64,000 nucleotides of DNA from Apostichopus japonicus (lineage: Eukaryota > Echinodermata > Holothuroidea > Aspidochirotida > Stichopodidae): the NCBI RefSeq assembly GCF_037975245.1, contig NC_092568.1, positions 17,317,001 through 17,381,000 of the forward strand. The letters are read 5' to 3'. Positions 1 through 30,911 of this stretch are shown here, in pieces. Every line of letters begins with the position of its first letter. Within the stretch, counting starts at the first letter, position 1. The translations under genes were made by a program, and so were the position numbers. The notes beneath the pieces were generated by a model. The model saw only the letters and a list, made by a program, of their open reading frames with translations, did not search any database and was not told the origin of the DNA.

Positions 1-689
1 TCACTTTGAGCCTTGAGTTACTACACACATTCACAACCGGGCTGAAGCTGGCCAACAGACCTCTGACAGATCGCTGAAAATGAACAGCGTCTACCTCGAA
101 TAGGGTATTGAATTCATGCAGGTTGCACAGAAAATGGAGCATTCCAAGGAAGCAAAGGAAGGTATATCGAACAAACGTCGTCGCTAAAGTTCAACACTGT
201 AGTCGCGGAGGTTGGCTGTTTGGGTCAAAGGCTGACCGCAAATTATGTGAAATATGCGGAAAATGTTGTTAACAGCCAAAACGTTACCATGCGAAGTGAG
301 ATGCTTTTGAGAACGAAGGGACAGGGGAAATAGACAAAATTGGCGAAGTTTTTTAGTCTGTTAATTTTAAGGAATTAAAAGAAGGCGCAAACTGTACCTC
401 ATTCTTTACGCTCAATTTCTCAATTGACAAGTGAAGTTTGTATTGATGTTAGATATTCTTCGTCTGTTTGCTCGTAGGAGATTGGAAAATAAACTCCTGG
501 GTTATTGACGTATCACTAAAAAAGTTAGATTAGTGTACGTCGACCTGAGAGGTTAAACTTCGGAAAATAACCCTAAACTAACCTGCTTTATTGATTTTTG
601 GGAGATTTGGTGAGTCATTACATTACTTTTTTATGCTTGGATATTACTGATGGTCTGAAAAATGATGAGGATTGAATATGATTTCAGGT
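1..689. other. Left flank, no gene recognised
   Basis: I see no open frame with a recognisable product here. Similarity to the satellite monomer begins gradually around 690, so this stretch is either host DNA or the outermost part of whatever carries the array. A short stretch near 240-300 weakly recalls a zinc-finger coding remnant, but it is interrupted and I do not call it. Confidence 0.4.
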
Positions 690-3600
690 ATTTTATAAAA
701 TCGCAATGCAAAAATATTACACTACAGAGCGAAAACAGGTAATTTGACAACCCCAATGTTTCGCTTAATATAACCCCGTGATAATTTTTGTGCAATCAAA
801 TGACCACCATCAATATATGCGGAGGACATTATTCTTTTTTTTTCATGACATTTCATGACAATCGAAGGGGGTCTACTATCAGCAGCAGGCGGATTCCGGC
901 CGCGCCCTCATCGGCTCAATGCAAAATACTACTTAAGTGCGAAAAAGGCAAAACTGACAACCCCAATAATTGCTCAATTTAACCCCGTGATAATTTTTGT
1001 GCCATCAAATGATCACCCTCAATATATGCAGGGAACACTATTCTTTCTTTTTCATGACATTTCATGACAATCGAAGTGGGTCTACTATCAGCAGCAGGCG
1101 GATTCCGGCAGCGCCCTCACCGGCTCAATGCAAAATACTACACTAAAGAGCGAAAACAGCCAAAATGACAACCCCAATTAATTGCTCAATTTCACCCCGT
1201 GATAATTTTTGTGCCATCAAATGACCATCATAAATGAATGTAAAGGACATTATTCTTTCGTTTTCATGACTTTTTATGACAATCGAAGGGGGTCTACTAT
1301 CAGCAGCAGGCGGATTCCGGCAGCGCCCTCATCGGCTCAATGCAAAATACTACACTAAAGAGCGAAAACAGCAAAAATGACAACCCCCATTAATTGCTCA
1401 ATTTAACCCCGTGATAATTTTTGTGCCAGCAAATGACCACCCTCAATATATGTAGGGGACACTATTCTTCCATGTTCACGACATTTCATGACAATCGAAG
1501 GGGGTCTACTATCAGCAGCAGGCGGATTCCGGCAGCGCCTTCACCGGCTCAATGCAAAATACTACACTAAAGAGCGAAAACAGCAAAAAATGACAACCCC
1601 CATTAATTGCTCAAATGTAACCCCGTGATAATTTTTGTGCCAGCAAATGACCATCATAAATGGATGTAGGGGACACTATTCTTTCATTTTCATGACTTTT
1701 CATGACAATCGAAGGGGGTCTACTATCAGCAGCAGGCGGATTCCGGCAGCGCCCTCATCGGCTCAATGCAAAATACTACACTAAAGAGCGAAAACAGCAA
1801 AAATGACAACCCCCATTAATTGCTCAATTTAACCCCGTGATAATTTTTGTGCCAGCAAATGACCATCATAAATGGATGTAGGGGACACTATTCTTTCATT
1901 TTCATGACTTTTTATGACAATCGAAGGGGGTCTACTATCAGCAGCAGGCGGATTCCGGCAGCGCCCTCATCGGCTCAATGCAAAATACTACACTAAAGAG
2001 CGAAAACAGCAAAAATGACAACCCCCATTAATTGCTCAATTTAACCCCGTGATAATTTTTGTGCCAGCAAATGACCACCCTCAATATATGTAGGGGACAC
2101 TATTCTTCCATGTTCACGACATTTCATGACAATCGAAGGGGGTCTACTATCAGCAGCAGGCGGATTCCGGCAGCGCCCTCATCGGCTCAATGCAAAATAC
2201 TACACTAAAGAGCGAAAACAGCAAAAATGACAACCACCATTAATTGCTCAATTTAACCCCGTGATAATTTTTGTGCCAGCAAATGACCATCATAAATGGA
2301 TGTAGGGGACACTATTCTTTCATTTTCATGACTTTTCATGACAATCGAAGGGGGTCTACTATCAGCAGCAAGCGGATTCCGGCAGCGCCCTCATCGGCTC
2401 AATGCAAAATACTACACTAAAGAGCGAAAACAGCCATAATGGCAACCCTCATTAATTACTCAATTTAGCCCCGTAATAATTTTTGTGCCATCAAATGACC
2501 ATCATAAATGAACGTAAAGGACATTGTTCTTCCATGTTCACGACATTTCATGACAATCGAAGGGGGTCTACTATCAGCAGCAGGCGGATTCCGGCAGCGC
2601 CCTCACCGGCTCAATGCAAAATACTACACTAAAGAGCGAAAACAGCAAAAATGACAACCCCCATTAATTGCTCAAATTTCACCCCGTGATAATTTTTGTG
2701 CCATCAAATGACCATCATAAATGAATGTAAAGGACATTATTCTTTCGTTTTCATGACTTTTTATGACAATCGAAGGGGGTCTACTATCAGCAGCAGGCGG
2801 ATTCCGGCAGCGCCCTCATCGGCTCAATGCAAAATACTACACTAAAGAGCGAAAACAGCCAAAATGACAACCCCCATTAATTGCTCAATTTAACCCCGTG
2901 ATAATTTTTGTGCCAGCAAATGACCACCCTCAATATATGAAGGGGACACTATTCTTCCATGTTCACGACATTTCATGACAATCGAAGGGGGTCTACTATC
3001 AGCAGCAGGCGGATTCCGGCAGCGCCCTCATCGGCTCAATGCAAAATACTACACTAAAGAGCGAAAACAGCCAAAATGACAACCCCCATTAATTGCTCAA
3101 TTTAACCCCGTGATAATTTTTGTGCCAGCAAATGACCATCATAAATGGATGTAGGGGACACTATTCTTTCATTTTCATGACTTTTCATGACAATCGAAAG
3201 GGGTCTACTATCAGCAGCAGGCGGATTCCGGCAGCGCCCTCATCGGCTCAATGCAAAATACTACACTAAAGAGCGAAAACAGCCAAAATGACAACCCCAA
3301 TTAATTGCTCAAATTTCACCCCGTGATAATTTTTGTGCCATCAAATGACCATCATAAATGAATGTAAAGGACATTATTCTTTCGTTTTCATGACTTTTTA
3401 TGACAATCGAAGGGGGTCTACTATCAGCAGCAGGCGGATTCCGGCAGCGCCCTCATCGGCTCAATGCAAAATACTACACTAAAGAGCGAAAACAGCAAAA
3501 ATGACAACCCCCATTAATTGCTCAATTTAACCCCGTGATAATTTTTGTGCCAGCAAATGACCACCCTCAATATATGTAGGGGACACTATTCTTCCATGTT

Positions 3601-6600
3601 CACGACATTTCATGACAATCGAAGGGGGTCTACTATCAGCAGCAGGCGGATTCCGGCAGCGCCCTCATCGGCTCAATGCAAAATACTACACTAAAGAGCG
3701 AAAACAGCAAAAATGACAACCCCCATTAATTGCTCAATTTAACCCCGTGATAATTTTTGTGCCAGCAAATGACCATCATAAATGGATGTAGGGGACACTA
3801 TTCTTTCATTTTCATGACTTTTTATGACAATCGAAGGGGGTCTACTATCAGCAGCAGGCGGATTCCGGCAGCGCCCTCATCGGCTCAATGCAAAATACTA
3901 CACTAAAGAGCGAAAACAGCCATAATGGCAACCCTCATTTATTGCTCAATTTAGCCCCGTAATAATTTTTGTGCCATCAAATGACCATCATAAATGAACG
4001 TAAAGGACATTGTTCTTCCATGTTCACGACATTTCATGACAATCGAAGGGGGTCTACTATCAGCAGCAGGCGGATTCCGGCAGCGCCCTCACCGGCTCAA
4101 TGCAAAATACTACACTAAAGAGCGAAAACAGCAAAAATGACAACCCCAATTAATTGCTCAAATTTCACCCCGTGATAATTTTTGTGCCATCAAATGACCA
4201 TCATAAATGAATGTAAAGGACATTATTCTTTCGTTTTCATGACTTTTTATGACAATCGAAGGGGGTCTACTATCAGCAGCAGGCGGATTCCGGCAGCGCC
4301 CTCATCGGCTCAATGCAAAATACTACACTAAAGAGCGAAAACAGCAAAAATGACAACCCCCATTAATTGCTCAATTTAACCCCGTGATAATTTTTGTGCC
4401 AGCAAATGACCACCCTCAATATATGTAGGGGACACTATTCTTCCATGTTCACGACATTTCATGACAATCGAAGGGGGTCTACTATCAGCAGCAGGCGGAT
4501 TCCGGCAGCGCCCTCATCGGCTACTTGCAAAATACTACACTAAAGAGCGAAAACAGCAAAAATGACAACCCCCATTAATTGCTCAATTTAACCCCGTGAT
4601 AATTTTTGTGCCAGCAAATGACCATCATAAATGGATGTAGGGGACACTATTCTTTCATTTTCATGACTTTTTATGACAATCGAAGGGGGTCTACTATCAG
4701 CAGCAGGCGGATTCCGGCAGCGCCCTCACCGGCTACTTGCAAAATACTACACTAAACAGCGAAAACAGCCATAATGGCAACCCTCATTAATTGCTCAATT
4801 TAGCCCCGTAATAATTTTTGTGCCATCAAATGACCATCATAAATGAACGTAAAGGACATTGTTCTTCCATGTTCACGACATTTCATGACAATCGAAGGGG
4901 GTCTACTATCAGCAGCAGGCGGATTCCGGCAGCGCCCTCACCGGCTCAATGCAAAATACTACACTAAAGAGCGAAAACAGCAAAAATGACAACCCCCATT
5001 AATTGCTCAAATTTCACCCCGTGATAATTTTTGTGCCATCAAATGACCATCATAAATGAATGTAAAGGACATTATTCTTTCGTTTTCATGACTTTTTATG
5101 ACAATCGAAGGGGGTCTACTATCAGCAGCAGGCGGATTCCGGCAGCGCCCTCATCGGCTCAATGCAAAATACTACACTAAAGAGCGAAAACAGCCAAAAT
5201 GACAACCCCATTAATTGCTCAATTTAACCCCGTGATAATTTTTGTGCCAGCAAATGACCACCCTCAATATATGTAGGGGACACTATTCTTCCATGTTCAC
5301 GACATTTCATGACAATCGAAGGGGGTCTACTATCAGCAGCAGGCGGATTCCGGCAGCGCCCTCATCGGCTCAATGCAAAATACTACACTAAAGAGCGAAA
5401 ACAGCAAAAATGACAACCCCCATTAATTGCTCAATTTAACCCCGTGATAATTTTTGTGCCAGCAAATGACCATCATAAATGGATGTAGGGGACATTATTC
5501 TTTCATTTTCATGACTTTTTATGACAATCGAAGGGGGTCTACTATCAGCAGCAGGCGGATTCCGGCAGCGCCCTCACCGGCTACTTGCAAAATACTACAC
5601 TAAACAGCGAAAACAGCCATAATGGCAACCCTCATTAATTGCTCAATTTAGCCCCGTAATAATTTTTGTGCCATCAAATGACCATCATAAATGAACGTAA
5701 AGGACATTGTTCTTCCATGTTCACGACATTTCATGACAATCGAAGGGGGTCTACTATCAGCAGCAGGCGGATTCCGGCAGCGCCCTCACCGGCTCAATGC
5801 AAAATACTACACTAAAGAGCGAAAACAGCAAAAATGACAACCCCCATTAATTGCTCAAATTTCACCCCGTGATAATTTTTGTGCCATCAAATGACCATCA
5901 TAAATGAATGTAAAGGACATTATTCTTTCGTTTTCATGACTTTTTATGACAATCGAAGGGGGTCTACTATCAGCAGCAGGCGGATTCCGGCAGCGCCCTC
6001 ATCGGCTCAATGCAAAATACTACACTAAAGAGCGAAAACAGCAAAAAATGACAACCCCCATTAATTGCTCAAATTTCACCCCGTGATAATTTTTGTGCCA
6101 TCAAATGACCATCATAAATGAATGTAAAGGACATTATTCTTTCGTTTTCATGACTTTTTATGACAATCGAAGGGGGTCTACTATCAGCAGCAGGCGGATT
6201 CCGGCAGCGCCCTCATCGGCTCAATGCAAAATACTACACTAAAGAGCGAAAACAGCAAAAATGACAACCCCCATTAATTGCTCAATTTAACCCCGTGATA
6301 ATTTTTGTGCCAGCAAATGACCATCATAAATGGATGTAGGGGACACTATTCTTTCATTTTCATGACTTTTTATGACAATCGAAGGGGGTCTACTATCAGC
6401 AGCAGGCGGATTCCGGCAGCGCCCTCATCGGCTCAATGCAAAATACTACACTAAAGAGCGAAAACAGCAAAAATGACAACCCCCATTAATTGCTCAATTT
6501 AACCCCGTGATAATTTTTGTGCCAGCAAATGACCACCCTCAATATATGTAGGGGACACTATTCTTCCATGTTCACGACATTTCATGACAATCGAAGGGGG

Positions 6601-8995
6601 TCTACTATCAGCAGCAGGCGGATTCCGGCAGCGCCCTCATCGGCTCAATGCAAAATACTACACTAAAGAGCGAAAACAGCAAAAATGACAACCACCATTA
6701 ATTGCTCAATTTAACCCCGTGATAATTTTTGTGCCAGCAAATGACCATCATAAATGGATGTAGGGGACACTATTCTTTCATTTTCATGACTTTTCATGAC
6801 AATCGAAGGGGGTCTACTATCAGCAGCAAGCGGATTCCGGCAGCGCCCTCATCGGCTCAATGCAAAATACTACACTAAAGAGCGAAAACAGCCATAATGG
6901 CAACCCTCATTAATTACTCAATTTAGCCCCGTAATAATTTTTGTGCCATCAAATGACCATCATAAATGAACGTAAAGGACATTGTTCTTCCATGTTCACG
7001 ACATTTCATGACAATCGAAGGGGGTCTACTATCAGCAGCAGGCGGATTCCGGCAGCGCCCTCACCGGCTCAATGCAAAATACTACACTAAAGAGCGAAAA
7101 CAGCAAAAATGACAACCCCCATTAATTGCTCAAATTTCACCCCGTGATAATTTTTGTGCCATCAAATGACCATCATAAATGAATGTAAAGGACATTATTC
7201 TTTCGTTTTCATGACTTTTTATGACAATCGAAGGGGGTCTACTATCAGCAGCAGGCGGATTCCGGCAGCGCCCTCATCGGCTCAATGCAAAATACTACAC
7301 TAAAGAGCGAAAACAGCAAAAATGACAACCCCCATTAATTGCTCAATTTAACCCCGTGATAATTTTTGTGCCAGCAAATGACCACCCTCAATATATGTAG
7401 GGGACACTATTCTTCCATGTTCACGACATTTCATGACAATCGAAGGGGGTCTACTATCAGCAGCAGGCGGATTCCGGCAGCGCCCTCATCGGCTACTTGC
7501 AAAATACTACACTAAAGAGCGAAAACAGCAAAAATGACAACCCCCATTAATTGCTCAATTTAACCCCGTGATAATTTTTGTGCCAGCAAATGACCATCAT
7601 AAATGGATGTAGGGGACACTATTCTTTCATTTTCATGACTTTTTATGACAATCGAAGGGGGTCTACTATCAGCAGCAGGCGGATTCCGGCAGCGCCCTCA
7701 CCGGCTACTTGCAAAATACTACACTAAACAGCGAAAACAGCCATAATGGCAACCCTCATTAATTGCTCAATTTAGCCCCGTAATAATTTTTGTGCCATCA
7801 AATGACCATCATAAATGAACGTAAAGGACATTGTTCTTCCATGTTCACGACATTTCATGACAATCGAAGGGGGTCTACTATCAGCAGCAGGCGGATTCCG
7901 GCAGCGCCCTCACCGGCTCAATGCAAAATACTACACTAAAGAGCGAAAACAGCAAAAATGACAACCCCCATTAATTGCTCAAATTTCACCCCGTGATAAT
8001 TTTTGTGCCATCAAATGACCATCATAAATGAATGTAAAGGACATTATTCTTTCGTTTTCATGACTTTTTATGACAATCGAAGGGGGTCTACTATCAGCAG
8101 CAGGCGGATTCCGGCAGCGCCCTCATCGGCTCAATGCAAAATACTACACTAAAGAGCGAAAACAGCCAAAATGACAACCCCATTAATTGCTCAATTTAAC
8201 CCCGTGATAATTTTTGTGCCAGCAAATGACCACCCTCAATATATGTAGGGGACACTATTCTTCCATGTTCACGACATTTCATGACAATCGAAGGGGGTCT
8301 ACTATCAGCAGCAGGCGGATTCCGGCAGCGCCCTCATCGGCTCAATGCAAAATACTACACTAAAGAGCGAAAACAGCAAAAATGACAACCCCCATTAATT
8401 GCTCAATTTAACCCCGTGATAATTTTTGTGCCAGCAAATGACCATCATAAATGGATGTAGGGGACATTATTCTTTCATTTTCATGACTTTTTATGACAAT
8501 CGAAGGGGGTCTACTATCAGCAGCAGGCGGATTCCGGCAGCGCCCTCACCGGCTACTTGGAAAAATACTACACTAAACAGCGAAAACAGCCATAATGGCA
8601 ACCCTCATTAATTGCACAATTTAGCCCCGTGATAATTTTTGTGCCTTCAAATGACCATCATAAATGAATGTAGGGGACATTATTCTTTCGTTTTCATGAC
8701 TTTTCATGACAATCGAAGGGGGTCTACTATCAGCAGCAGCGGATTCCGGCAGCGCCCTCATCGGCTCAATGCAAAATACTACACTAAAGAGCGAAAACAG
8801 CAAAAATTACAACCCCCATTAATTGCTCAATTTAACCCCGTGATAATTTTTGTGCCAGCAAATGACCATCATAAATGAACGTAAAGGACATTGTTCTTCC
8901 ATGTTCACGACATTTCATGACAATCGAAGGGGGTCTACTATCAGCAGCAGCGGATTCCGGCAGCGCCCCCTATGGCTCAATGAACAGATAGTGCA
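690..8995 (+). repeat. 213 bp satellite array, left arm (about 39 monomers)
   Basis: A tandem array of a ~213 bp monomer. Each monomer has a GC-rich core (GGCGGATTCCGGCAGCGCCC), a poly-purine stretch before GGGGGTCTACTATCAGCAGC, and an AT-rich part with CCCCGTGATAATTTTTGTGCC. Outer copies (about 690-1100) are the most diverged, and interior copies are nearly identical within their type. Four monomer types can be told apart just after TTTGTGCC: D (CATCAAATG with ATGAATGTAAAGG), A (CAGCAAATG with CACCCTCAATATATG), B (CAGCAAATG with ATGGATGTAGGGG) and C (CATCAAATG with ATGAACGTAAAGG). They mostly run in the order D-A-B-C, giving a ~850 bp higher-order unit. The last monomer breaks off near 8995. 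The same family occurs inverted at 31405-34655. Confidence 0.97.
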
Positions 8996-9544
8996 ACACT
9001 AAATACTTAAAATAGATGTGGTCAGTAATAGGGAAGCACTTTCCCCTAGCGGAGCAAGCCGTTTCTATTCGATATTTTAGTTGTTAATGAATAAATCCAA
9101 TGTTAACGAAAGTGCGATACCAAACGCCAGATGACGAGGATGTAGAGGTATGATGGGATGACTTATCAAGCAACAGGAAGAAAAAATAACCTCCTACATA
9201 TCCGTAAGTAATCAGAGCAAATCGTGGCTTTCATTTTATGTTATTTCCATCTTCTTACTTTATCATGTCTATATCATTACGTGAAAAATCCCATACGGAA
9301 TGCGCAGAGAAATGCATTTAATAAACCTGATATCAATTGGTAGCTAGTTTTTGCCTTTAATTGGTCTTAGTAAGGAATGTTTAAAGTTAACTGGTTTCAT
9401 AGGAGATACGTGCTTTTCGTAGATTGGGAGCGCCCAATCGCAAAAGTTGTACAAATTATAATTCATCTGAAATGTCGTTGTTCTATATATATATAGGCCC
9501 TATTTTACTTTTAAATGAACGAATATAGTTACTGCTGCTATATC

Positions 9545-9578
9545 TACACACACACACACACACACCCACATATACATG

Positions 9579-9623
<45 letters not shown>
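9545..9623. repeat. CA then TA microsatellite
   Basis: A run of CA dinucleotides (9545-9566) is followed after a short spacer by a run of TA dinucleotides (about 9585-9623). Confidence 0.95.
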
Positions 9624-9625
<2 letters not shown>

Positions 9626-10872
9626 AGATATTAGCTACATGTCTATAGGCCAACCTGAAAGGAGAAAGTACTTTAAAATCATTGCCCAGTTTTAAATGTG
9701 TTAATTGTGTGTAAAATGGACAGGTTTTTATATTTATAATTCTGTGGAACTCTTTAGTTGACAAATATAACGTCAATTTGGCCTATTAAAGATATCCTAC
9801 AATGATACAGAGTGAAGAAGGCTTATAACAAACACAATTAATGATTCTGAAGTTTTGTATTGCACTAACTTGACCATACGCTGTGTGTATGTGTTTGTAA
9901 CTCTCTTACCATATTCCCTTTTAGGGGTTAGAAGTTCATGCCGCATATCTTTGCGTAAGTTGATTTATCTGCTGAATAGGATCATTAACATACTTGTTGT
10001 AATCAGTCATTCAGTTTTTCCTTCATAGTACATAGTTTAGATTAGTTATAGTTTCTGCCAATATTTGTATTCCCTTGTGAATTAATTATTGAAAGTGGTT
10101 ATACCTTGTTGTATTGACTGATGTTAAAATCTTGGTTTTGTATAATTGGTATTCCTTTAAGGCTATGATTGGTTTCTATACAGTATTACTCACTGTTGAG
10201 ATGAAATGGGGTGTATAGGCGGTTTTACACTATCTAACGCAACGTAGTCGCCAAGAACCTGAAGTATTTTGTAATGCTAGAATATGATAGAAATTTTGTA
10301 ATGCTAGAATATGACAGCCATATGGACCTAATATTGTTGTCCCGTATAGTGAAGTTAACGTGATATATATTGATCTTTTCTTAAAGTGGCACATATACCA
10401 TATCTGCTTACTGATGTCTCTGCGACAGCTTGTTATTTTGAATCTTGCCAGTAAAATAAAAGTCATTAGCAAATTGTTCATGAAAACGAAATTCCTGGAC
10501 CTTAGCTGCTTTAACTTCTGGCTCACTATATTTATAGGCATAACATTTGACACAGGCATTATACCTCAAAACAAGTAGCCCATGTTCTAATGTGCATATA
10601 GTGTCCAGCCTAATGGTAAATTTTCCGTTAAAATACACCACCAACTGAACAACATCTCGCACTATTTGTCATGTACTGCGTACAAATTTCAAGAACAAGG
10701 AGAGGCAAAGTATAGTAAAAAAATGACTTAAAGGCATATACCTCGTGCATTCGAAAGAAAAAAAAAAGGTTGATCCTTAACTCCAAGAAATGGTGAGCGA
10801 CATTACCATTTGATTGGCTTATTTCAATAGTCACTCCTTTGCAAAGAGTGAATATCAACTACTTTGAAATGC

Positions 10873-10873
<1 letters not shown>

Positions 10874-10954
<81 letters not shown>

Positions 10955-10958
10955 GTAA
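10874..10958. repeat. Long TA microsatellite
   Basis: About 40 near-perfect TA dinucleotides lie just upstream of the candidate first exon of the transposase-like gene. Open frames crossing it are low-complexity artefacts. Confidence 0.97.
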
Positions 10959-11025
10959 ATGTAATATGTGTGGTTGTTTATGTATCGACCTATACTCAAC
11001 TTTCTCATACCAGGTAACGACGGAA

Positions 11026-11157
11026 ATGGGAGAACGCACTGGTGGAAAGGAAGATTGCTTGGAGGTCCAATGGAACCACGCAATTACGGCAAGTGGGTTT
11101 AATACAACGCCAATTCGCTTCAAACGGCCAACTCAGAATCATGGCGACGAACGTCCG
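11026..11157 (+). CDS. Candidate short first coding exon of the transposase-like gene
   Basis: From the ATG at 11026 a 44-codon frame runs to a consensus-like donor (CCG then GTGAGC). An acceptor with a pyrimidine tract (TTTCTCTCAG) ends at 12168, and the splice keeps the frame into the long exon, adding 25 further codons that include an AT-hook-like KRGRP. An upstream CAG at 11013 could also be an acceptor, so this might be an internal exon. I see no homology that proves the peptide, so the support is the matching splice phase and the extra DNA-binding motif. Confidence 0.45.
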
Positions 11158-14100
11158 GTGAGCATTTTTTTATCAATTGAATGCTAGTGGTTTCCCAACG
11201 AGGTTCTTTTACCAAACTTTGATTATCAACGCGTGGCTAGAGTCAGTTCACTACCATAAAGATAACGCTTCGTTTTGAATGAAATTTTTAGACCTTTCAT
11301 TGGCTTTTGCAATTGGAAATACATTTGGATCAGTGTTTTGGGTGCGGGAGGTGAGTTGTAGTGAAGAAGGGCGCGTCGGTTAGGCTAGCGTGGTTGTCGC
11401 GTGGTTCCCCCTCTCTTCCCTCTGCTGTACTGGCTATTTGATCGCCTGAATTCTGAGCTGTGATTGTGCGCCGCCACGATCATGGCGTTGCTAGTCGGTG
11501 CGCGGCGCAAGGTCATATATAGCGGCGCGAGTCAATGTGAGCCGCTAAGTTTATATCGGCGCTGGTTATAGAGTGCCCCGTCAAGGTCACGGCGCAAATT
11601 TATAGCGGCGCGAGCCATGCTCTCCACCAAGGTCCCGGGTGCACATTCAGTGTTTGTAACATATTTCACGTTGTACGTACTAGTACATAAACAGATGCAA
11701 GCACAGAGAACCGGTTCTGGTATTAAGTGTTTCAGCTTCAATCCATACCCTAACCCTGCATGTTTTCGGCCCAGAGGAATATGCCCTATCCCTTCTTTAT
11801 CTTTCTCCGAAAGTAAAGGTGAATTCACTGCATGTATCAGCATAACATCCGAGGACGAAGGCAGCGTTACAATTAGAAGCTGCTTTCAAATCCCACTGAA
11901 ATATTCTTTTTATTACGTCTATTACGCCCTGAAGCCTGAAGGGGAGAAGAAATGACCGTATACTATCGGCCTGAAAGCAGTATTTACCTGATTTTCAGTT
12001 ATCATTTATTACAATGTGTGCATTTAAGTGAAGCTGCTGTGTAGTCATGCGAATGTGGTACGAAACAAGAACCGAAATGATAAATAACCTGCGATACAAT
12101 TTATCCTTTTATAGAAAGAGACACACGAACATTTCCTGGAACGATCACCGACAAGGGATTTCTCTCAGCTAAAGGGCGGTGCTCACAAGCGAGGACGACC
12201 TGCGTGTACCGAGTATGCCAAGATCTCTGCCGCAATTTCGTCAGTGAGAAAAAAGGTGACGGTTACCTCATCACCATCAAAAGCTTTCTGGGAGAGTGTC
12301 GTTATGGAGCTGGGCTGGTCGACAAAAAATCTCAAGAGGTCAGTGAAGGTCCTCCGGAGCATATGGTGTAATAACAGAGGAAACATACGATTACTGGTAG
12401 AATCGGGAGAAGGAGCAACAAGAACGAAACCAAGGGAAAAGAGGAAACGTAAGCCAGTAAGATTTTCAAGTAATTGGGTCGACATTAATATGAAAAGAAA
12501 GTATTGCACTTGTCAAACGTATTATGATAACAAACGACAGTACATCCATTGCAAGCAATGTGATGAATGGTACCATTACAGCTGTATGCGTATTCCTTCA
12601 ACGGTAAAGTCTGGTTTTAATGTAACATTTTATTGCGGTATTGGTAAGTGTAACAACGGAAAGTATGTATTTCAGCTGCACCATGATAAAGATGGCGTTA
12701 AGTTGAAAGAAAACTTGAACTCGAGTGAAATAGTACATCCGCAACCTACTACCGCCAAATCCAGCCATGAATGTAATGATACAAATACCGATTCATGTAA
12801 GAATGAAAGTACAGAGGTTGCCAGCCGTGTATCAAATAAGACGTTAAGTGTGTTGTCTGGATCACAAGCAAATAATGATGACTACGTTATTAAGCAGTTT
12901 CCCAAGAAGGGAACATTTTCAATCAATGCAGACACTTGTAATACAGTATTAAGTAAAAGACGCGGTAGGTGTCTTCCCACAGGGGAATGGCAAAAGTATT
13001 TCGTAGATGGTATGTCTAAAATAAACCCTTATTGTGTAATCATGTTTAAGTACCATTATCTTATAGACAATAACACTAGTGAAACGATATTCCGGGCCAA
13101 GGGGTATTGCAAATTTGCAGATTGTTCCGTAAGCGTACTCATTTCCATGGATAGAAACTATTCATGCACGGTGAACTTCAATGGAAACATGAAGCACAGC
13201 ATGTACGACATCCATGCTCGGCCAATTAGGGGCTTAGATAGGAGATTAGCGGGAAAGACCCTCTCCATGGGTGTGAAGCCAATGAAAGTTCTTTTACGGA
13301 ATCTGTCTTCTAAATCTTCAGAAGTTATAGCATCGGGTAACAGAAACGACTGTGGCAGGACGCTGTCTGTCATGCAGAAAATTTCAAGTGAGAGTAGGTC
13401 TAAGGAACGTGATGATGAAGACGAAATCAAAAGTCTTCTAAAAAAGCAGCAGAAGTACTGTTTAAAATATAACCATCGTGGTAGGGTTCCCGGCTTCATC
13501 CAACAAATATCTGTTAGTCCGATGTATATAATATGTTTCACGGAAGGAGGACTAAGGGTATGGCACGATATGTGTAAAACAGACGTAGTATTCTGGGATG
13601 CGACCGGTGGGGTGTTGGACAGAGGCCATGGTAAAAAGCAAATTTTGTATTATGAGTTGTCTGTTAGAAATTTAACAAAGGGTAAGTCAACCTTGCCGGT
13701 GTCCATACTATTATCCGAAGATCAAAGTCTACCTGTCATTATGAATTGGTTAAACGTTTTTAGACATAAAGAAAAGCTTTTATTTGGGCATGGTAGCATA
13801 TCAACCCCTGTACAAATCAACAGTGATAGGGCATGGGTATTCTTATTGGCTGCCATGCATGTTTTCAACAACGAAACTTACAAACAGTTCCTAAACCGTG
13901 CATGGAGTATTTTGAATGGCAAATTAACACACGAAGACTGTAACAAAACCTTACCGCATGCATGTATTGGTCACTTTATGAAAAATTGCAAAGATTTAAC
14001 CAAAAAACATTACAAAAAACACTACCGTTTTGGAATGTTTTGCTTGAGCTTACTGGTTAATGCGTGCTCCCTGGAAGCATTCGCATGTATTGTTTATGAT

Positions 14101-16644
14101 ATTTCTGTTGTTCTTTCGTCCCAATGCGCGTCACCCCTAGTATCGTCTTGCTTAAAGAGATTACACCAAAGAATAACAGCTTTATCCATAGAAGGTAATG
14201 GACAGAAAGACGAACTATCTCCCCTCTTTGTAGGTCACACCGACTTTGCCTCTGACAGTAACAGCACTAATTTGTCAGAAGATGCATTCCTTTCCCGTAT
14301 GAATTCCCCTTTCACTGAACATTTTAGTAAAGTTATAGAGAAAGGTCGCCTCGATTGCAGAAACAGTCACTACACCGGAGTACCTACTGGAGACGACCAT
14401 AACTCCTACTTTTGTGTAACTTTCCTAAAAGAGATACAGAGAATCCTGCTTCCATCTGCACCACTTTGGTCAGATATGCTACCAAGTTCTCTTCATAAAT
14501 GGCAGGTTGCAAATGGACAACCAAGCAGCATTTCGTTTCCACGGTCTATAGCTCATTCGGAGCAACGTATGGGGGTTTTAAAACAAATACAGTTAGGGAA
14601 ACGAAAATTTCATCGCATAGACGAACTTGTCGAGGAATTAACAAAAGACTCTCGTGGATTAGAAATTATTTTTTCAGATGCAGTAAAACACTTCTATAAG
14701 TCAGCTGATAAACGCAACACCAACTTAATACGTGAAAAATGGTCGCGAAAAAGATCACATTCACAGGGTTCAGTATATCAAAAATCACCCCATAAGAACG
14801 TTCATGAAGAACGAAATGTGCTTTCTAATGTTAATATTAATGAATATACAGGTGGAGACATGGCAAGCGAATGTCACAACATATATGACAACGTTGTTCT
14901 TATGTTCACCCCGCTTCAAAATCTAGAAAATAACTGCTGGTTCAGTTCAGTTTTGCAGTCATTTATTCGTATTGGCAGCATAGACAGATGTTTCCGGGAA
15001 AGTACCTTATCCGTGAGTGACTCGCGACTTAACACTTTGCTAGATATATCGAGAAGCTTATTTCACGGCAGGGTTGTAAGTGATAGCGAAATGATCCATA
15101 CTCTTAAAGTTATGTGCGCATTGTGCGATTTTGAAAGAGGTACGCAGTGTGATGCCAGCGAATTTTTCCTTAAGGGACCAATACAACTACTCTCGCATTT
15201 GCGTATGACAGACAAAATCCTTTTTACGATGGAAACGAATTCAAAGTGTAGGTCGTGCAGTAGTGTAAAGATCAAAAAGGAAACAGGTTGTATGTTTCAG
15301 GTAGCCATATCTAACACAAGATTCGACACCACAATGAGTGACTTGATTTGTTGCAATTTTAACGCTGATTCTGCTTTTATCAATTGTGATATCTGTAAAA
15401 AAAATAAAACTTTTGATATCAGTAGGTCTTTAACCGTAATACCTCCAGTGCTCATAGTCCACTTGCTACGTTATAACTACGATAGCAAAAGTAAACAAAT
15501 ATTAAAGGACAGTAGCTTTGTAGAGATTGAAGAGTATTTAGTTATCCCTACTAAGATATGCACCGTGTATGCTTTGTCTACTGTGGTTCAACACATTGGT
15601 GAGAGTACTGGTACTGGACATTACCAAACATTGTTTAAAACTTCGACAGGATGGGCAGTGGCAGACGACAATACAAGCCTGGGGTCGACATTGCATACAG
15701 TAACAGCTAATAACGCATACATATGTGTATACGAAAAGGTTGACAATGTTGACACACAAAATTCACCGACGACTCCAACATTGTCTAAATCAAGTTTCGT
15801 CACACAAACGCGCAAAACCCAGACCAAGGACGACATGTACCACGAGAAAGTATCCAACCCTACTAGCACATCTGACCATACCACTGGACATTCACAGATA
15901 ACTAAAGAAGGTAAACATGACAATCGCTCACCTGTTATTGAGCAGGATCGATCAACGGAAAACATTGAGAAAAATATAGATCGTGCCGATGATATTATCG
16001 ATTTGACGACGGAGGACGAGGAAGCCGAAGACCTATTTGACCCACAACGACGACCCGTGACCAGGGGATTTGGCATTAACGTTATGGTGAACGACTTGAA
16101 GTTGCTGATGGAGCCGGACGGGTGGTTAAACGACAATATCATTAACTTTTATCATAATCTTTTATCAGAGGCAGCGCAGAAATCTTTAAACACAAAGGTA
16201 TTCCCCTTCTCAACATTCTTTTTTTCTAGCCTGTTGAACGATGGGTACGACAAAGCTTATAGGTGGTGTAGCAATTCCGATATATTTCAGCAAGATTTCT
16301 TATTAATTCCCATAAATTCTGTTTCTCATTGGACTTTAGTGGTGGTGGATAACATTCAGCGCGAGGTTGTCTACTACGATTCTCTTAATGATACGAACAA
16401 CAAAACACACCTCGACCATATCAAACAATTTTTATTGATCGCAAATACTGAGAGATCTCTTAATCTAGGTGAATGGTGTTTTCGAATGAAAACTGACGCA
16501 GCCAAACAAGGAAACATGAGTGACTGCGGCGTATTTACTTGCCTCTTTGCCGAAAGCGCAACGGGTTTGAATAAAGACGTCAAATGGAATGATATACCTT
16601 ACGAGAGACGACGCATAGCGACAACAATACTTTCCCGTAGTTAG
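11026..16644 (+). CDS. Transposase-like protein with PHD finger, MULE-like DDE core, USP deubiquitinase and Ulp1 SUMO-protease domains
   Basis: Two-exon model: 11026-11157 (44 codons) spliced to 12169-16644, about 1,535 residues. The long exon is open throughout. If the short exon is not used, the first ATG in frame is at 12304. Domains in order (model residues): an AT-hook-like KRGRP near 51; basic KPREKRKRKP near 130; a PHD finger at about 157-205 with eight C4HC3 ligands (CTC, CKQC, H, C, then C and C); an RNase-H/MULE-like core with WDATG (Asp codon 13597), NSDRA (Asp 13825) and a CxxH (13963/13972), third acidic residue not certain; a C19 USP domain at about 958-1241 with Cys-box NNCWFSSVLQ (Cys 14935), a CDASEF box, two CxxC pairs and GHYQTLF (His 15619); the acidic SUMO-binding-like DIIDLTTEDEE near 1319; and a C48 Ulp1 domain with His 16327, Asp 16378, Gln 16507 and Cys 16525. 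Family knowledge: some plant MULEs (Kaonashi) carry Ulp1-like proteases. I infer a nuclear protein of a DNA transposon, apparently intact. A domesticated host gene is the alternative. Confidence 0.88.
11345..11650 (+). promoter_or_regulatory. CpG-rich block with repeated TATA/GC motif, candidate promoter or enhancer
   Basis: This ~300 bp block is sharply richer in GC and CpG than its AT-rich surroundings. The 14-mer TATAGCGGCGCGAG occurs exactly twice (11518-11531 and 11601-11614), with a variant TATATCGGCGCTGG between them. CAAGGTCA occurs at 11508-11515 and TCAAGGTCA at 11581-11589, a sequence matching the extended nuclear-receptor half-site bound by SF-1/ERR proteins. It lies between the candidate first exon and the long exon of the transposase-like gene, so it could be an internal promoter or an intronic enhancer. 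Function is inferred only. Confidence 0.4.
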
Positions 16645-18230
16645 GAGCTTCCATGATCAATACATAAGAGGTCAAAATATAAACTAAGCATCTGCGCTAT
16701 GTATACGGGAGCAACCCCTTGTAGTGTGTTGTATGTGTGGCCAGCGTATGTAACTGAAAGAAAAACATCCGATTTGATTATCCCAAATGTAACTAAAACA
16801 AAACAATAATATCCCTTACATTCGATTATGACGGTAATTTAATGGCAAAATTGTTTAACCTTATTTGGTCTATATAGTACCTTGTTTACTCTGATGTCAA
16901 CTTTGCAACAAGCATCGTACATGTAAACACGCTGAATTAATCATTTAAGTCCTGTGTATTTCTACTGTAAAATTAACTTTATTTTTAAGATCGAAAATTA
17001 CACTAAGAGAAACCGTATTAAAAGCTACAATTGAGGTCTGCAAATATCAGCTGTCTTATAGGCAGGACTTCAGTTAAGACCGGTTTACTGGTCTAACCTG
17101 CAGGGTGGGTAGGAAAACATGTTTAAGAAGGTTTTCTTCATGCTAGTATAATGTTTATGGTAATTTGCTTTTCTCTTTTCACAAAGTATCTATCTTAGCT
17201 ATCTTCAAAGACTATAGTTCTTTGCGAGGAATAATAACGATGGAAAAAAGAAGATCGTAGAATTTATGGAGGTGGTTTACATTCTGCATTTATTTCATTT
17301 TTGGACTGCTTTGGGCCCTCCATCCTCATTCATCTTTCTGCACGGTTATTACATGGTATAATATCACAAAAAATACGACCAAAATGTTTGCTGTTTCTTA
17401 AATGTTATGCATTATTTGACATCGGAATTTTACAACACCCCGTGTCAGGTTAGATTTAGTAAACTTAAAAAAAAAAAACAGACACCCAAGTGTTTACACG
17501 TGCCATTTACGTGTGTGTCTAGAAAATACAGAAAAACAAAAGCTTTGATCAACAAATTTAATGTGAAACGAATATTTCCCATCATGCAATGCACTGCCGT
17601 GAAATGAATATGTTGAATATTTGTTATCTTCCTCATCCAGCATGCTCTCGAGATGTGGTTTTAATAAGTATACCTGGATAGTTTGTGCCTGATTTTATGA
17701 TGTGAGTATCCTCACAAGGTATGCTACTTTAAATAATGCAGAAAAAACAGCACCTAGAGGTTGAAACGAGTTTCATTTTGTGTAATGTACATAAAGCCAG
17801 AAACGTGCATGGCGTATGTGGCAAGAATTAATTAAAGTATAGTTGTACATAAATGCAACTGTAGCAAGCTTATTATTTCGTCGACTGTATCTTTCTTGAG
17901 TGTATTTGAGTATGTCTTTTTCATTTCATTTTCTGTCTATTACAAAATTACTACAGAATCTTTTTCTTTTGGGAGGTATTGAAAATTCACCTTTATGGAT
18001 GTATTGTGCAACCCACCCCCCCCCCCTCCCACATCGTTTTAAATTTACAGAAGAAAAATGACAAATGTAATCAACTACGACACTCATGCACTTCTAGACA
18101 CCTACTTTAAAATGGAATGGGCTCAACATCCCCCACCTCCGAAAGCATGTTTGTAAACTAATTTTCACAGTGTTGTCTTCTTTTCCCCGACGGCTGCCCA
18201 TAGGATGGTGTATGCAGATTATGTAGAAGA
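16645..18230. other. Downstream region of the transposase-like gene, no gene
   Basis: AT-rich non-coding sequence between the stop codon and the first Ginger insertion. It should contain the 3' untranslated region of the transposase-like gene. I found no clear terminal inverted repeat that would end an element here. Confidence 0.6.
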
Positions 18231-18234
18231 CCGG
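18231..18234. other. CCGG target-site duplication, left of Ginger copy 1
   Basis: CCGG stands immediately before the TGT that opens copy 1. The same four bases follow copy 1 (24523-24526) and copy 2 (30908-30911). Confidence 0.8.
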
Positions 18235-18269
18235 TGTAGCAGTACAAACTGTCGCAAATATTCCATATT

Positions 18270-18310
18270 CAGTATAAACTGTCCCAGTCCCACTGGGACA
18301 GTTTATACTG
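18270..18310. repeat. Perfect hairpin near the left end of Ginger copy 1
   Basis: The 19-base arm CAGTATAAACTGTCCCAGT (18270-18288) and its exact reverse complement (18292-18310) are separated by three C residues. The arm echoes the terminal repeat (GTACAAACTGTC). The matching hairpin in copy 2 (about 24560-24600) is less perfect. Confidence 0.9.
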
Positions 18311-21300
18311 AATTTACCAGTACATTTAGTCTCCCGGACCTTTTGTACAAGGCCAGTTGGTACAGACTGTCTCCCAGGACAGTTTATGCTATGATGAAAC
18401 GAGGGGGGACATTATTTGTTGGTCGCATATTTGGTTGTAAATTGTGTCCCCCTGAACACTACGTCCGCATTAGCATGTACGTTCGAGTAGCAAAAATTTA
18501 ATTAGTAATGGACTCTGGCAGTATCCGTATTATTAGCAAACTGTCGTATTTCGGCTTCCGTATATTTAGCAGTAAACTCGTGCGACAACTAAAAATGGAA
18601 AAGCTAACAGAAAACGTGAGACAAATTGCAGATATTCTAAGAGATGAGAGCTATCCAAGTGGGTTTACAAGAATAAAACAGAGAAGGATCTTACGGAGAC
18701 AAAGTCAGTCTTTCAGACTGGCTGAAAATGGAACTCTTGCATACCGAAAAAAAAGGAAAGTTTTGCTATCTAGGGCTTCTCAACTCGCCCAAATCGAGGC
18801 AGCTCATACTGACTAGTGACATCTATAAGGTAATGTCTGTAACTTACAGTATAGGATACACAATATGGTATTGGTTGTTAAATGGCGAACGGCCATTCCA
18901 CAGTTAAACATTAACCAGGCCTCTAGGACCGATTGGTGCACAAATCATGATATTCTTTTACCACGTTTGGTTATAGTTGTAAAAACTCATTCGCAAAAGT
19001 CAAGCAATTGCTTATGCAACATTATAATCAGTTGTATGCTTGAGCAAAGTTGTAAGTGCATGAACAAAGTTGTTAGGGCCTATTTCTTTTCGTTTTGTTT
19101 ACCCAATTGTCTTAACAAATTTTTGTGAAAATTATTATAAATTTCTACCCTTTATCGCCCTGCCTATCATAAAAGATAACAACAGATCACTAACGCTTAC
19201 AGAGCTAGTCTGGTTTGCATGCATGGGACACTATAAAATGCTATTATTGGACTATAGCATATAGCCTAGCCTACTTCTAGAGGAAAGTGGCACTAATACT
19301 GTACATAACAAATTCACGTTCATTAATTTTGGTTGGTAAGAACAGATATTGAAGGCCTGATAGTACTTTTTTAGGTGTGGCATATTCTCTACATGCCAAA
19401 CCTCACTGCAGAAGAAAACTCCTTAAATATCTATAGACCCAAATAGTGGCCATGCAATATGTACAATAATGGGAATATTCCATTTCAACCACCGATATAG
19501 AGTTGTAATTCAATTTTAAGGCACTTCAGCTAGAACTACCAATCCTGCAGCCCATATATTTGTGTGTGTTTGTTTTTTTTTTTTTTTGGGGGGGGGGGGG
19601 ATGGGCAAAAAAACATGATATCTCCTTGATCATGAATTTTCTTATCTCTTTGAAGGTGTTCATCTTTGCATAGATAAACCAGACAACAGACTATGTCTAG
19701 ATTCTATTGGAAAACTATCAACGTTGATGTAACAAGTTATGTTCAACAGGATGTCAAAGCGTCATTGTCCTGTAGACCTACGAACAAGTCTCCATAGCAT
19801 TCCTGTAACTGGATTATGGAAACAGGTAAATTCTCAATCTGTTTTAATTGGACAAGATGTCCACAGTATGCAGTGAAGGTTTAGTATAGTTAATGTCACT
19901 CTTTCTGGACAAATTCAACATTTACAAGTTTAAAGGTAGTCTGTATTGGCCCTAAATTTTGGCCACTTTAATTGCTAAAAGTTTTCAAAAAGTACTTTCC
20001 AAGGGGTAATAACCCTTTAAATTGTGCTCAGACATTCTAAATGATGACACGAGATATTGAATGTCCCAGTGAGGTAAATTTCCTCGAGGGAAATAAACAT
20101 ACTTAAAGAATTTTGTCCATAGTGAAAATTTGGCATATTTAAGGCCTATACAGCATACCTTTAAGCCACACTCTGGCCTAACTGCAGAGCAACCATCAAT
20201 ATAGGAATATAATTGCAAGTTGCAAAAAGTGGCGTATCATTTTTCTGGTTTAGTGGTTGAAGAGATTGTAAATATATGGTACAGTATGGTGTAAGTTACA
20301 TTTTCATGTTTGCAAGGTAAAAATAATTGGCCTAAATCCACCAACACCCTGTTTCGATCAGATATCCCACTGTTTTTATCTAGATCTCTGTATAGAATGA
20401 AGCAATGGAATAGAACAACAGTCAAGGCAAAGCATGCAACTTGTAATTGTTTTTGAAATTAGCACCTAAATGCTGTCTTCTTTCTTAACAGGTTGGTGTA
20501 GATCTTATTGGTCCTCTACCAGTGACAGCTGCCAAGCGACTGTACATCATAACACTGTCTGACTTCTATTCAAAGTGGCCTGAGACTAAGGCAGTGCCTG
20601 AAAAGACTGCAGCATCAACTTCTTATTGCATTACTGATGTGATGATGAGGTAAGCATGTCTTAAAAAGTGAATAATTTTCTGTAGTTAGTTCCATTATGA
20701 ATGGCATCATATCTGTTATTTGTACCATGCAAATAACTTGTAGTGCATGGCAGAATGCTGCGTTTGAGTATAAATTATTTCCAAATAGGTATTAAGCATA
20801 CAGAAAGATCACGAAGGTAGGTGAGAACAGAGAAAGTGTACTGTAAATCTTTGCAGGTTAAGTCCCCATTAACAAGTTTATATGTACATAGTTTTTGTTC
20901 CTATATTTACTTGCAAAGTTTCCACCTCTGGTTCTTAAGTAGCATATAGCCTGACAATTGTCGTCATTTGATTTACATCCCCAAAAAGTGATTTTGGCTG
21001 GACATGTTTCACTGCAGCAGACACAGTTTATTTGTTCAAACAAATGATGAGTAAATAATTAAGACCACATTCCACAGCTAGACACCACCTATTGTGTGTT
21101 GTTTTTCAAAAAGGTGTTGGACAGTTTGATATTGTAACCACAGGGAACTTTTCTGTTTAGAAAGTGTGAACTTATTACCACTTGGCTGTTTTGACAGGAA
21201 TTTCGACAAGATAAGAGAGATAATGTATCAACTGAGTTTTGGTACCATTTCTCTGTTAGGTCCGTTGTGGAAAATTGCTAAATGTGTTTGTGTGTGGTGG

Positions 21301-24300
21301 GGGATATTTCCTGAAACCTGGGAGAGGGACCCCATTTTCTTTGGCAAAATAAGGCAATGTTTAGGTCTCTTGATGCAAAATGATGTATAATAGTACATTT
21401 TACTATAATAATGGTAAGCTAGCATTATTTGTTTTTGCATCTGCCATTTGGGTCATACAGAGGGTGTTTTGAACCCCCCATGGATCCTGATTCAGGACAA
21501 TTAATGTTTGATCGGCATTAAACAGTCATACCATGCACACATACATCAATAGAGCACCAAAAGGCATCAAATTTCTGTTGTATCCTAGCTTACTCTAATT
21601 TGATAAATTTCTGATATTAAATTTAATTAATATGCCCCAAAGTTGTATTGGCTCATGTGGTTAAAACTTTTCAGGTTTGGTAGTGAACTATACAATATAG
21701 CGCCAAAATTATGACATGCAATCTCCAATTAATAAAATGGAGCCAGTAATCCCATAAACATGTAGGTGTCACAATAAAAGATCATCAAATTAACTCAATG
21801 TCTAAGCATAGTTCAGTTGTACACTATACAGTCTACACTTAACCAATATGGTGAATGTTAATTATCTTTGTAGTGGAGCTTACACATAACTTTTCAAGAT
21901 GATAATTTATTTTATATATGACTTACAGTGTGGTATTCACTACTCATAATATTGCTTTCAACTTTTATTTTGCACAGATTTGGTTGTACTGATATCTCAT
22001 CCCAGACCACCAATGGAGGGAGTATGTATGAGGTTAACAGAAGACATGTCTAGACGATTTTCTTAGCAGTTAACTTGTTACCGACAATAATCTTGTCTTT
22101 CACTCTAACATATCATGAGAGAAAATTGCGTCAGCTGCTATACGTTTAAGCAAAGACAGGCCATTGACTTTTCACTGCCAGTCGTAGTCGAAGGGATGTG
22201 ACGCTCGAAATTCTTTATCACCTCATTACTTCATTAAATAACAAATAAGAAGGCGTGTTTCTTGGTTCTGGAAGTTGTGTTCAAGATAAGTTCTCATAGT
22301 AAAACATATAACCGACCATATTCTTCTTCCTGTTGTAACTTTTGCTGTTATGGATTTCTGTGTAAGTCTTAACGAAAAACCCATTGGATATATGAGATTC
22401 AGCTATTTTATTTGTAATTAACAATCAAGATTAAATTTTTGACGGTATCAAGTTGCACATTAAAGCATTATATAGGTAATCCTACTGTTTGTGGAAAGCA
22501 GTTAAAGGGGGGGAATTCTAATAGGGAAACTTCTGCATGGTTTTATTGAGGTCTTTACCAAACTCTAAAGAGGATGTTCTTCATGTGGATTATGAGAGTT
22601 TCAAGTACATATTGTTTGAAGAAGAGTGACAGTAGTATATCATTCTAATCAAGCAATACCTCCCTGCTTGAAGGATGCTCTAGAAAGCATGGATTATCTT
22701 TAGTTGCATCAGAGCTACAAAGGGAGAGTCATCATTCCAGTTAAATTTCCCCATGCAGGGGGTAGGAAGTGAGGGTGGGCACACAACATCAGAGGGACAT
22801 TTTCTCATTCCACAACCACCACTCGTTATGCTATAAACCGACACACCGGCCATATCACTTAAATATGATGTATGATGTGTTAGTATGTTATCAATACTAT
22901 TTATTGAGATTGTTAATTGTTAAACGTGCTATAAAAAGATATGGGATGCCATTTAAAAATAGCATGTACAGACAGTGCCCCCCCCCCCCAGGCTCCTACC
23001 TCCCAGATCCCATGTATAATCATTTTTCACTCTTTGTCCAGTCTGATATAGATTCAGAATATTGTGTTTGTGCATGACTATCATCCAATTTCATGTTTTG
23101 ATTTTTACTATATTAACTTTCTTTTAACAAACTTTTCTCTACAAGAATGACATATTTAAAGTGTGAGAAACATGATGAGACAAAAAATCTAGCATATTGC
23201 ATCCTGCTCTGTCCTATTTGCTTTATTCTTTCCCTTGTTTGGCTTTGTTTTGTTTCCTGTATGTTTGCAGCTCTTTTGAAGAGGGTATCGTTCTAATATA
23301 TCTTTTCTAATTTGAACCACTTTTGTCCAATAAGAAACATTCATAATAAGAAACAACGAACCTTTATCACTGGAATTGCCTGGAATGCCATTTGTCTATA
23401 CAAATGAAAATTTGCTTCACGCATGGCCATCACAACGGGGCAGGGGGTGGGGGAATGGCCCTCCACCTTGTTGAGTGGGAGAAAACCTTGACGATTGAGT
23501 GACAAAAATAAGGAAGGGTAAAAAAGTAAACAATAAAGTAGTAATGAAAGTCAATAAATAGGTGTCAAGCCCATACGGAGAGGGTTGGGGCAGTGTTGAC
23601 ATGTTCAAGGTCAGAGAAGTATCTAGTCCAGCTACTTCATGGTTGTTATTAGCAAACAAAAATATTTTGGAACTCATCACAGATAGGTCACAGACTTAAG
23701 AAGACCCCTCCCCAGGACACAAATTCGATAACTTACCATCCCAACTCCCCCCCCCCCTTATCCGTAACTTGAAAACACCCTCGGTTCCCGTCCTATAATG
23801 AGCTTTACGCACGGATGAAATTTCATATTGCCATGGCAACTCTCGTAGACCCATGAAGTACAGTTACCATACTTGCCAAAACTTACCCACTGTGTGTTAG
23901 GGAAATACGGCAACAATGAAGTTTGGACTCCTAAAGTTCGTAATATTTTACCTCTGCAATTATCATTTTTTGTTGTAGCTGTTGCATTCCCTATCCCGTA
24001 CCCGCCCTCCGTTGGGAGGGGGGGGGGAGTTAGGTTTATACTATCCCTCCCTCTGTAAAGATGACTATGAACGCAATGTAGTTGCCGAATACAACATGCA
24101 ACATATACGGAGGATGAAATAGCAGCAATCACAACAAAAACATGATTAACATCTTCTACAGATGGAAGACTTGTTTCTTTTTCTTCTTTTTTTTTTTCCC
24201 TTCTATTTTTTGTTTTGCAGCAACGCACAACGTCTCATTTATTGCCTGTAACATTTAACTCTGATGTATGCATCTGCTCTAATTATTGATATAATGAACT

Positions 24301-24468
24301 CAATTGCCATTTGAATGTCGAAATGCTTAAATTTTATGCGGGACAAAAGATGCTATGAAGTATTTGCGGACATTCTGTACCAGGACATTTCGTCCGGTGG
24401 GACTATATTTGCTGTGAGGGTGGGACACAATTTTCAGCAGATAATGTCCGACCGGACTAAATATGCTG

Positions 24469-24498
24469 GTACAAAGTGTCCGCGGAGACACTTTGTAC
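24469..24498. repeat. Hairpin near the right end of Ginger copy 1
   Basis: The 12-base arm GTACAAAGTGTC and its reverse complement enclose a 6-base loop (CGCGGA), 24 bases inside the element end. The same hairpin occurs at 30854-30883 in copy 2. It resembles a binding site arranged as an inverted pair, probably for the element's own integrase. Confidence 0.9.
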
Positions 24499-24522
24499 AG
24501 GGGGACACTCTGTACTGTCACA

Positions 24523-24526
24523 CCGG
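24523..24526. other. Single CCGG shared by the two Ginger copies
   Basis: Copy 1 ends ACA at 24522 and copy 2 starts TGT at 24527, with only CCGG between them. One target sequence serves as the right duplication of copy 1 and the left duplication of copy 2. Confidence 0.85.
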
Positions 24527-30500: not shown

Positions 30501-30907
30501 ATTAAATAGCAGCAATCACAACAAAAACATGATTAACATCTTCTACAGATGGAAGACTTGTTTCTTTTTCTTCTTTTTTTTCCCGTTCTATTTTTTGTTT
30601 TGCAGCAACGCACAACGTCTCATTTATTTCCTGTAACATTTAACTCTGACGTATGCATCTGCTCTAATTATTGATATAATGAACTCAATTGCCTTTTGAA
30701 TATCGAAATGCTTAAATTTTATGCGGGACAAAATATGCTATGAAGTATTTGCGGACATTCTGTACCAGGACATTTCGTCCGGTGGGACTATATTTGCTGT
30801 GAGGGTGGGACACAATTTTCAGCAGATAATGTCCGACCGGACTAAATATGCTGGTACAAAGTGTCCGCGGAGACACTTTGTACAGGGGGACACTCTGTAC
30901 TGTCACA
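24527..30907 (+). mobile_element. Ginger-type DNA transposon, copy 2 (decayed)
   Basis: 6,381 bp, collinear with copy 1 along its whole length, with the same TGT start, the same terminal repeat (ending TGTACTGTCACA) and CCGG on both sides. Integrase-derived segments lie near 24800-25045, 25935-26115, 26780-26937 and 28266-28330. In the 158 bp integrase-core segment it differs from copy 1 at five positions (about 3%), so the two copies shared an ancestor fairly recently. Its coding parts are broken as in copy 1, so amplification from an already defective source, or duplication after decay, is likely. Confidence 0.85.
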
Positions 30908-30911
30908 CCGG
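30908..30911. other. CCGG target-site duplication, right of Ginger copy 2
   Basis: CCGG follows the terminal ACA of copy 2 and precedes unrelated sequence (AGTAGTTCATTATG). Deleting both copies and two CCGGs gives a plausible empty site. Confidence 0.8.

Follow-up and report, generated by a model that had tools for sequence, protein, structure and literature searches.

A PHD finger, a predicted USP deubiquitinase and a predicted Ulp1 protease in one open frame of Apostichopus japonicus, a gene of likely transposon origin

A single protein with PHD, USP and Ulp1 domains is encoded in a 64-kb stretch of the Apostichopus japonicus genome (referred to below, at its full length, as the window), and a transposon origin of its gene is likely. 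Each of the ingredients has a precedent in transposons, and within the literature covered here the pairing of USP with Ulp1 is a new combination. The frame is uninterrupted from 12115 to 16644 on the forward strand and comprises 1509 codons plus a stop, that is 4530 nt as measured rather than the 4.4 kb given in the original prediction, which had correctly called the exon open. In a simulation of 100 sequences of 64 kb each, matched in dinucleotide composition to the window from base 9001 onward, the longest open frame had 216 codons (mean 148). Coding exons of 4.5 kb lacking introns are usual in transposons. A candidate first exon upstream could plausibly be joined in phase to the long exon to give a protein of 1553 residues, judging by its start codon and splice signals; Pfam returned no match for this exon (11026-11157). 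Within the candidate intron, the stretch 11340-11640 is GC-rich by eye and contains tatagcggcgcgag two times. Residue numbering throughout starts at base 12115, and the features of the locus are as follows.

11026-11157, forward strand: candidate first coding exon read from the sequence, with an ATG, 44 codons and the donor gtgagc immediately following
11158-12114, forward strand: candidate intron read from the sequence, gt..ag, phase 0, with the acceptor tatag ending at 12114
12115-16644, forward strand: long exon, 1509 codons plus stop
12505-12651, forward strand: PHD finger, Pfam PF00628, E 1e-5, aa 131-174
13105-13215, forward strand: possible zinc-binding stretch, C332, C337, H361 and H367 as counted in the translation, upstream of the central region
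13576-14124, forward strand: central region, possible RNase H-like (DDE) core with the layout D495, D571, C617xxH620, E654
14914-15732, forward strand: predicted USP (peptidase C19) deubiquitinase domain, Pfam PF00443, E 5.6e-21, aa 934-1206
15994-16008, forward strand: SUMO-interacting-like motif IIDLT, followed by TEDEE, aa 1294-1298, in the linker between USP and Ulp1
16045-16638, forward strand: predicted Ulp1/SENP (peptidase C48) domain, Pfam PF02902, E 1.1e-25, and alignment to SENP1

Searching the whole frame against Pfam with matches allowed up to E 10 yielded four families: Peptidase_C48, UCH, PHD and a PHD variant model. The PHD, UCH/USP and Peptidase_C48 matches each exceed the curated Pfam cut-offs, and the variant model (E 0.98) falls under its own. 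The original prediction had placed four domains in this one exon and had proposed profile searches as the check; these bear out PHD, USP and Ulp1 at curated cut-offs and leave the fourth, a MULE-like DDE core, with no profile match. Since PHD, USP and Ulp1 share a single frame, USP and Ulp1 are not separate genes here, and their description as parts of one gene stands for this locus.

The UCH/USP profile is covered from position 3 to 254 of 254, and the USP stretch taken by itself also matches a second Pfam family, UCH_1 (E 1.7e-8). Catalytic-type residues N936, C941, H1169 and D1184 are present, as are the zinc cysteine pairs C1045/C1048 and C1091/C1094; the roles of these residues, N936 and D1184 among them, are presumed from the corresponding boxes of other USPs. 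The closest PDB sequences are USP8 and USP15, both of which align with the His/Asp region. The Cys box reads QNLENNCW versus the usual NLGNTC, seen in USP8 and USP15, and this stretch has a low phmmer score by itself; the Pfam match spans it. We predict a complete USP deubiquitinase that has both its catalytic and its zinc-binding residues. For the Ulp1 part, the Peptidase_C48 match (aa 1337-1502) extends over profile positions 2-206 of 217, and SENP1 is the nearest PDB sequence (E 1.9e-31, aa 1311-1508), followed by SENP2. Residues H1405, D1422, Q1465 and C1471 align with those of SENP1, giving the predicted Ulp1/SENP protease a complete His-Asp-Gln-Cys set. Both protease domains had been described beforehand as complete and as retaining all of their catalytic residues, and profile coverage and residues read in the sequence agree with this, the Ulp1 set also by its alignment to SENP1.

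Two features go beyond the original prediction. Upstream of the Ulp1 domain lies a SUMO-interacting-like motif, IIDLT, which we take to belong to the SUMO-interacting motif class; in 5000 shuffles of the protein the bare motif type arose 161 times and the motif with an acidic tail five times (5/5000), for a pattern that was defined after the motif had been noticed. The PHD finger, in turn, resembles readers of H3K4me3 at the level of its residues. All eight of its zinc ligands were found (C131, C133, C146, C149, H154, C157, C174 and C179); the C4HC3 ligand set, its last pair being C-x4-C, and an aromatic cage can both be recognized in the sequence. At E<=0.01 its PDB matches comprise 25 distinct sequences, headed by BPTF (E 6.9e-6), Spp1 and PHF2 and including PHF8, DIDO1, CXXC1 and TAF3. 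In the BPTF alignment, the cage positions are occupied by Y130, Y137, Y143 and W152; we take the three tyrosines to match the three cage tyrosines of BPTF, and we assume that the matches besides BPTF and TAF3 also bind methylated H3K4. PMC7613515 regards BPTF and TAF3 as readers of H3K4me3, and W32 of BPTF is given as a cage residue in PMC2705796.

Between the PHD finger and the USP domain, the central region is a candidate transposase core. Its D495, D571, C617xxH620, E654 layout presumably corresponds to the residue order of MULE and hAT transposases; a layout of this type occurred in 46/2000 shuffles of the same 251 residues, under a pattern composed after viewing the sequence. No transposase profile from Pfam, NCBIfam or PHROGs matches the frame or its pieces. 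The sole NCBIfam match lies in the Ulp1 part (24.1 bits vs a cut-off of 700), and the one PHROGs match (aa 798-898, E 0.036) is to a family of unknown function. Pfam likewise returned zero families for the stretch holding C332, C337, H361 and H367, and phmmer with aa 396-729 against the PDB gave zero matches up to E 10. Predicted by AlphaFold without an alignment, aa 280-890 and aa 440-690 reached a mean pLDDT of 37.2 and 40.3, respectively. The low-confidence model of aa 440-690 places D495 in a strand followed by two strands and a helix, an RNase H-like arrangement; the strand expected ahead of D571 is absent from it, three extra strands come first, and its strand order is not reproduced in the model of aa 280-890. 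Because of the low pLDDT, the missing strand and the unrepeated order, these models are given little weight. With the aa 440-690 model, Foldseek returned nothing at E<=0.001, and the best 50 of 750 matches were to unrelated folds, no transposase among them; this search carries no weight. A distant MULE member could slip past a profile search made with a single sequence. As the layout is what remains, occurs at that frequency in shuffles and was defined post hoc, we regard a DDE transposase core as a reasonable guess rather than a finding; the original assignment had itself named missing profile support as counting against it, and this is what the three profile collections returned.

Searches of both flanks found no terminal inverted repeats adjoining the gene, the kind of end that, along with a target-site duplication of 8-11 bp, serves to recognize a Mutator-like element. 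Comparison of 8801-12300 with 16501-26000 gave no inverted match scoring >12 (low-complexity seeds skipped), a gapped inverted search of 8991-12114 against 16645-31400 had its best match at E 0.039 (21 bases at 90%), and inverted matches between 1-12000 and 16601-64000 at E<=1e-3 were confined to satellite arrays. To the left of the gene a 212-bp satellite array fills 704-8982 on the forward strand, and the same satellite forms a second, reversed array at 31416-34383, whose degraded margin extends to about 34650. Between the gene and this second array, a stretch of about 6.3 kb is directly duplicated in tandem (~18230-24521 repeated as 24522-30916); when the alignment is divided into 200-column steps, 30/33 are at least 94% identical and the lowest is 87%, gaps excluded. 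The duplicated unit holds a 104-codon frame (18502-18816) which, as we see it, looks like the beginning of an integrase of Gypsy or Ginger type, and whose second copy (24794-25108) is identical at 300/315 bases and has an in-frame stop. We considered whether a Ginger-like integrase might have its first exon here; Pfam gave no match either in this frame or in the six frames of 18799-23702, and the likeness is noted as an observation. By tblastn the window contains one copy of the PHD-USP-Ulp1 gene, two other matches having E 7.6 and 7.8, and neither Rfam (gathering scores) nor ARAGORN found anything over the window. Relatives were sought in viral, prokaryotic and phage collections, which are not animal genomes. 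Viral contigs gave two pattern matches each for the whole protein, the central region and the USP domain, none of them confirmed; prokaryotic genome contigs gave one for the whole protein, also not confirmed; and tblastn against phage sequences gave no match.

Deconjugating proteases have been reported in transposons of several kinds. Bao et al. 2010 (PMC2836005) report Ulp1 in Mutator elements from plants, hydra and lancelet, and OTU is listed for MuDR-6_HM (PMC6446971); Mutator-like elements thus share a deconjugating protease with the present protein, which differs in that no MULE profile matches it and no inverted repeats were found at its gene. The MULE table of PMC6446971 contains no USP. 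According to the same paper, several MULE groups lack terminal inverted repeats; it also questions the MULE transposases reported from lancelet and vertebrates, and could not confirm those of lancelet in the sequences it examined. Ginger1 proteins carry OTU or Ulp1, never both according to the account in PMC2836005, and one family, Ginger1-9_HM, has Ulp1 together with a PHD finger. They resemble the present case in being transposase-type proteins with a C-terminal Ulp1, in Ginger1-9_HM with PHD as well, but they have a Gypsy-type integrase core and either OTU or Ulp1 alone, whereas here USP and Ulp1 occur together; Pfam detects no integrase or H2C2 profile in our protein, so the Gypsy-type core and zinc finger that characterize Ginger1 were not found here. 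Rehavkus has a PHD finger, as does the putative transposase described here, plus a minisatellite near one end (PMC6446971); the Rehavkus minisatellite precedes the 3' inverted repeat, and the 212-bp arrays here lie at a distance on both sides of the gene. Two protease domains in one transposon protein have a parallel in Helitrons, 121 of which carry OTU in addition to VTD (PMC9741609). That pair belongs to deubiquitinase families and resides in a rolling-circle RepHel protein; the protease families differ from ours, no SUMO protease is named in the parts of that account drawn on here, and transposon OTU domains are stated there not to have been assayed for activity. Lastly, the Trichomonas protein XP_001314237 joins Transposase_11 to Peptidase C19 (PMC2836005), sharing a USP-type protease that is there fused to a transposase domain; the transposase family is another one, and Ulp1 or PHD is not mentioned in the passage concerned. 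The original statement that no described element was known to carry USP as well accordingly needs softening in view of the Trichomonas protein and of the Helitrons with two deubiquitinase-family domains, and what survives of it concerns the pairing: USP with Ulp1 in one transposon protein was not found among the literature matches listed, a scope from which most subscription papers and the Repbase reports were excluded.

We consider it most likely, at about an even chance, that the gene is of transposase type, still intact, and belongs to a family of DNA transposons with a Mutator-like centre and no set superfamily, one that is present in this species or was so in its recent ancestry. This transposon reading is favoured by the three domains in one frame, the catalytic residues of both proteases, the reader likeness of the PHD finger, the intronless 4.5 kb exon, the transposon precedents for the parts and the D-D-CxxH-E layout. 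It is weakened by the lack of a transposase profile match and of terminal inverted repeats, by the single copy in the window, by the frequency of the layout in shuffles (46/2000), by the inconsistent AlphaFold models, by a Foldseek result without a transposase in the best 50 of 750, and by the unconfirmed status of lancelet MULE transposases (PMC6446971). Several of these same observations (no inverted repeats in the flanks, one copy within 64 kb, an intact frame with intact protease residues, no transposase profile) are what would be expected of a domesticated transposase, a host gene present once, derived from such an element but no longer with its ends, whose product binds chromatin at H3K4me3 sites and takes ubiquitin and SUMO off there. 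The missing repeats are not decisive for such domestication since some MULE groups lack them (PMC6446971), and we consider it unlikely, if well worth keeping in view.

That the protein was never a transposase appears to us distinctly improbable. On this account it would be a host multidomain enzyme in which PHD, central region, USP and Ulp1 were brought together by gene fusion, consistent with a centre that no transposase profile matches and a layout that is not rare in shuffles (46/2000); however, the layout is present, and we know of no host protein that has USP and Ulp1 in one chain. Far less credible still is that the gene sits inside a single, very large fold-back-like element whose ends are the opposed 212-bp arrays (704 to ~9000 and 31416 to ~34650). 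One satellite does flank the gene on both sides in inverted orientation, and the outer edges share one exact 9-mer vs 0.23 expected from 30 shuffles, from which all expected counts at these edges derive. Yet this 9-mer lies inside the left array (739) and outside the right one (34740), and hence is not placed as a target-site duplication would be; exact 8-mers number 3 vs 1.97 expected, the 6.3 kb tandem duplication sits between the arrays, and satellites often occur in both orientations. With one mismatch allowed, 9-mers number 16 vs 9.2 expected and 10-mers 5 vs 3.6. We rejected the arrays as element ends for want of a properly placed target-site duplication at their outer edges, despite the example of Rehavkus, where a minisatellite close to one end accompanies a PHD finger (PMC6446971).

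Under the transposon reading, the protein would work like other transposon proteins that carry deconjugating proteases. Its PHD finger, to judge from the residues, would bind H3K4me3 and keep the protein at active promoters, the central region might cut and join DNA, for which the support is weak, and the SUMO-interacting-like motif could anchor the protein at SUMO-rich complexes. Ulp1 would strip SUMO and USP would strip ubiquitin, acting on the transposase itself or on nearby chromatin and repair proteins, with the possible outcome that the element escapes silencing and the protein escapes degradation; we hypothesize that escape from one or the other is the benefit. In its specific form, in which the element's transposase reads both H3K4me3 and SUMO, aims insertion at active promoters and strips both tags on the spot, we hold this proposal tentatively and think it somewhat doubtful. 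For deconjugating proteases in transposons, Bao et al. proposed a repair role during transposition (PMC2836005), and the authors of the VTD study proposed shielding of transposition proteins from degradation (PMC9741609).

Deubiquitinase-type or SUMO-protease domains occur in transposons of several kinds, and the domain combination described here suggests that there are mobile elements which counteract two tagging systems of the host simultaneously. We know of no element that counters the ubiquitin and SUMO pathways with one protein, and if the transposon reading is true this would be the first known to us to do so. As the chain is predicted to combine both activities with a reader of histone marks and with a motif of SUMO-binding-like type, each could be removed by a single point mutation and the effects on transposition separated, and insertion-site choice via an H3K4me3 reader would become testable in an animal cut-and-paste element.
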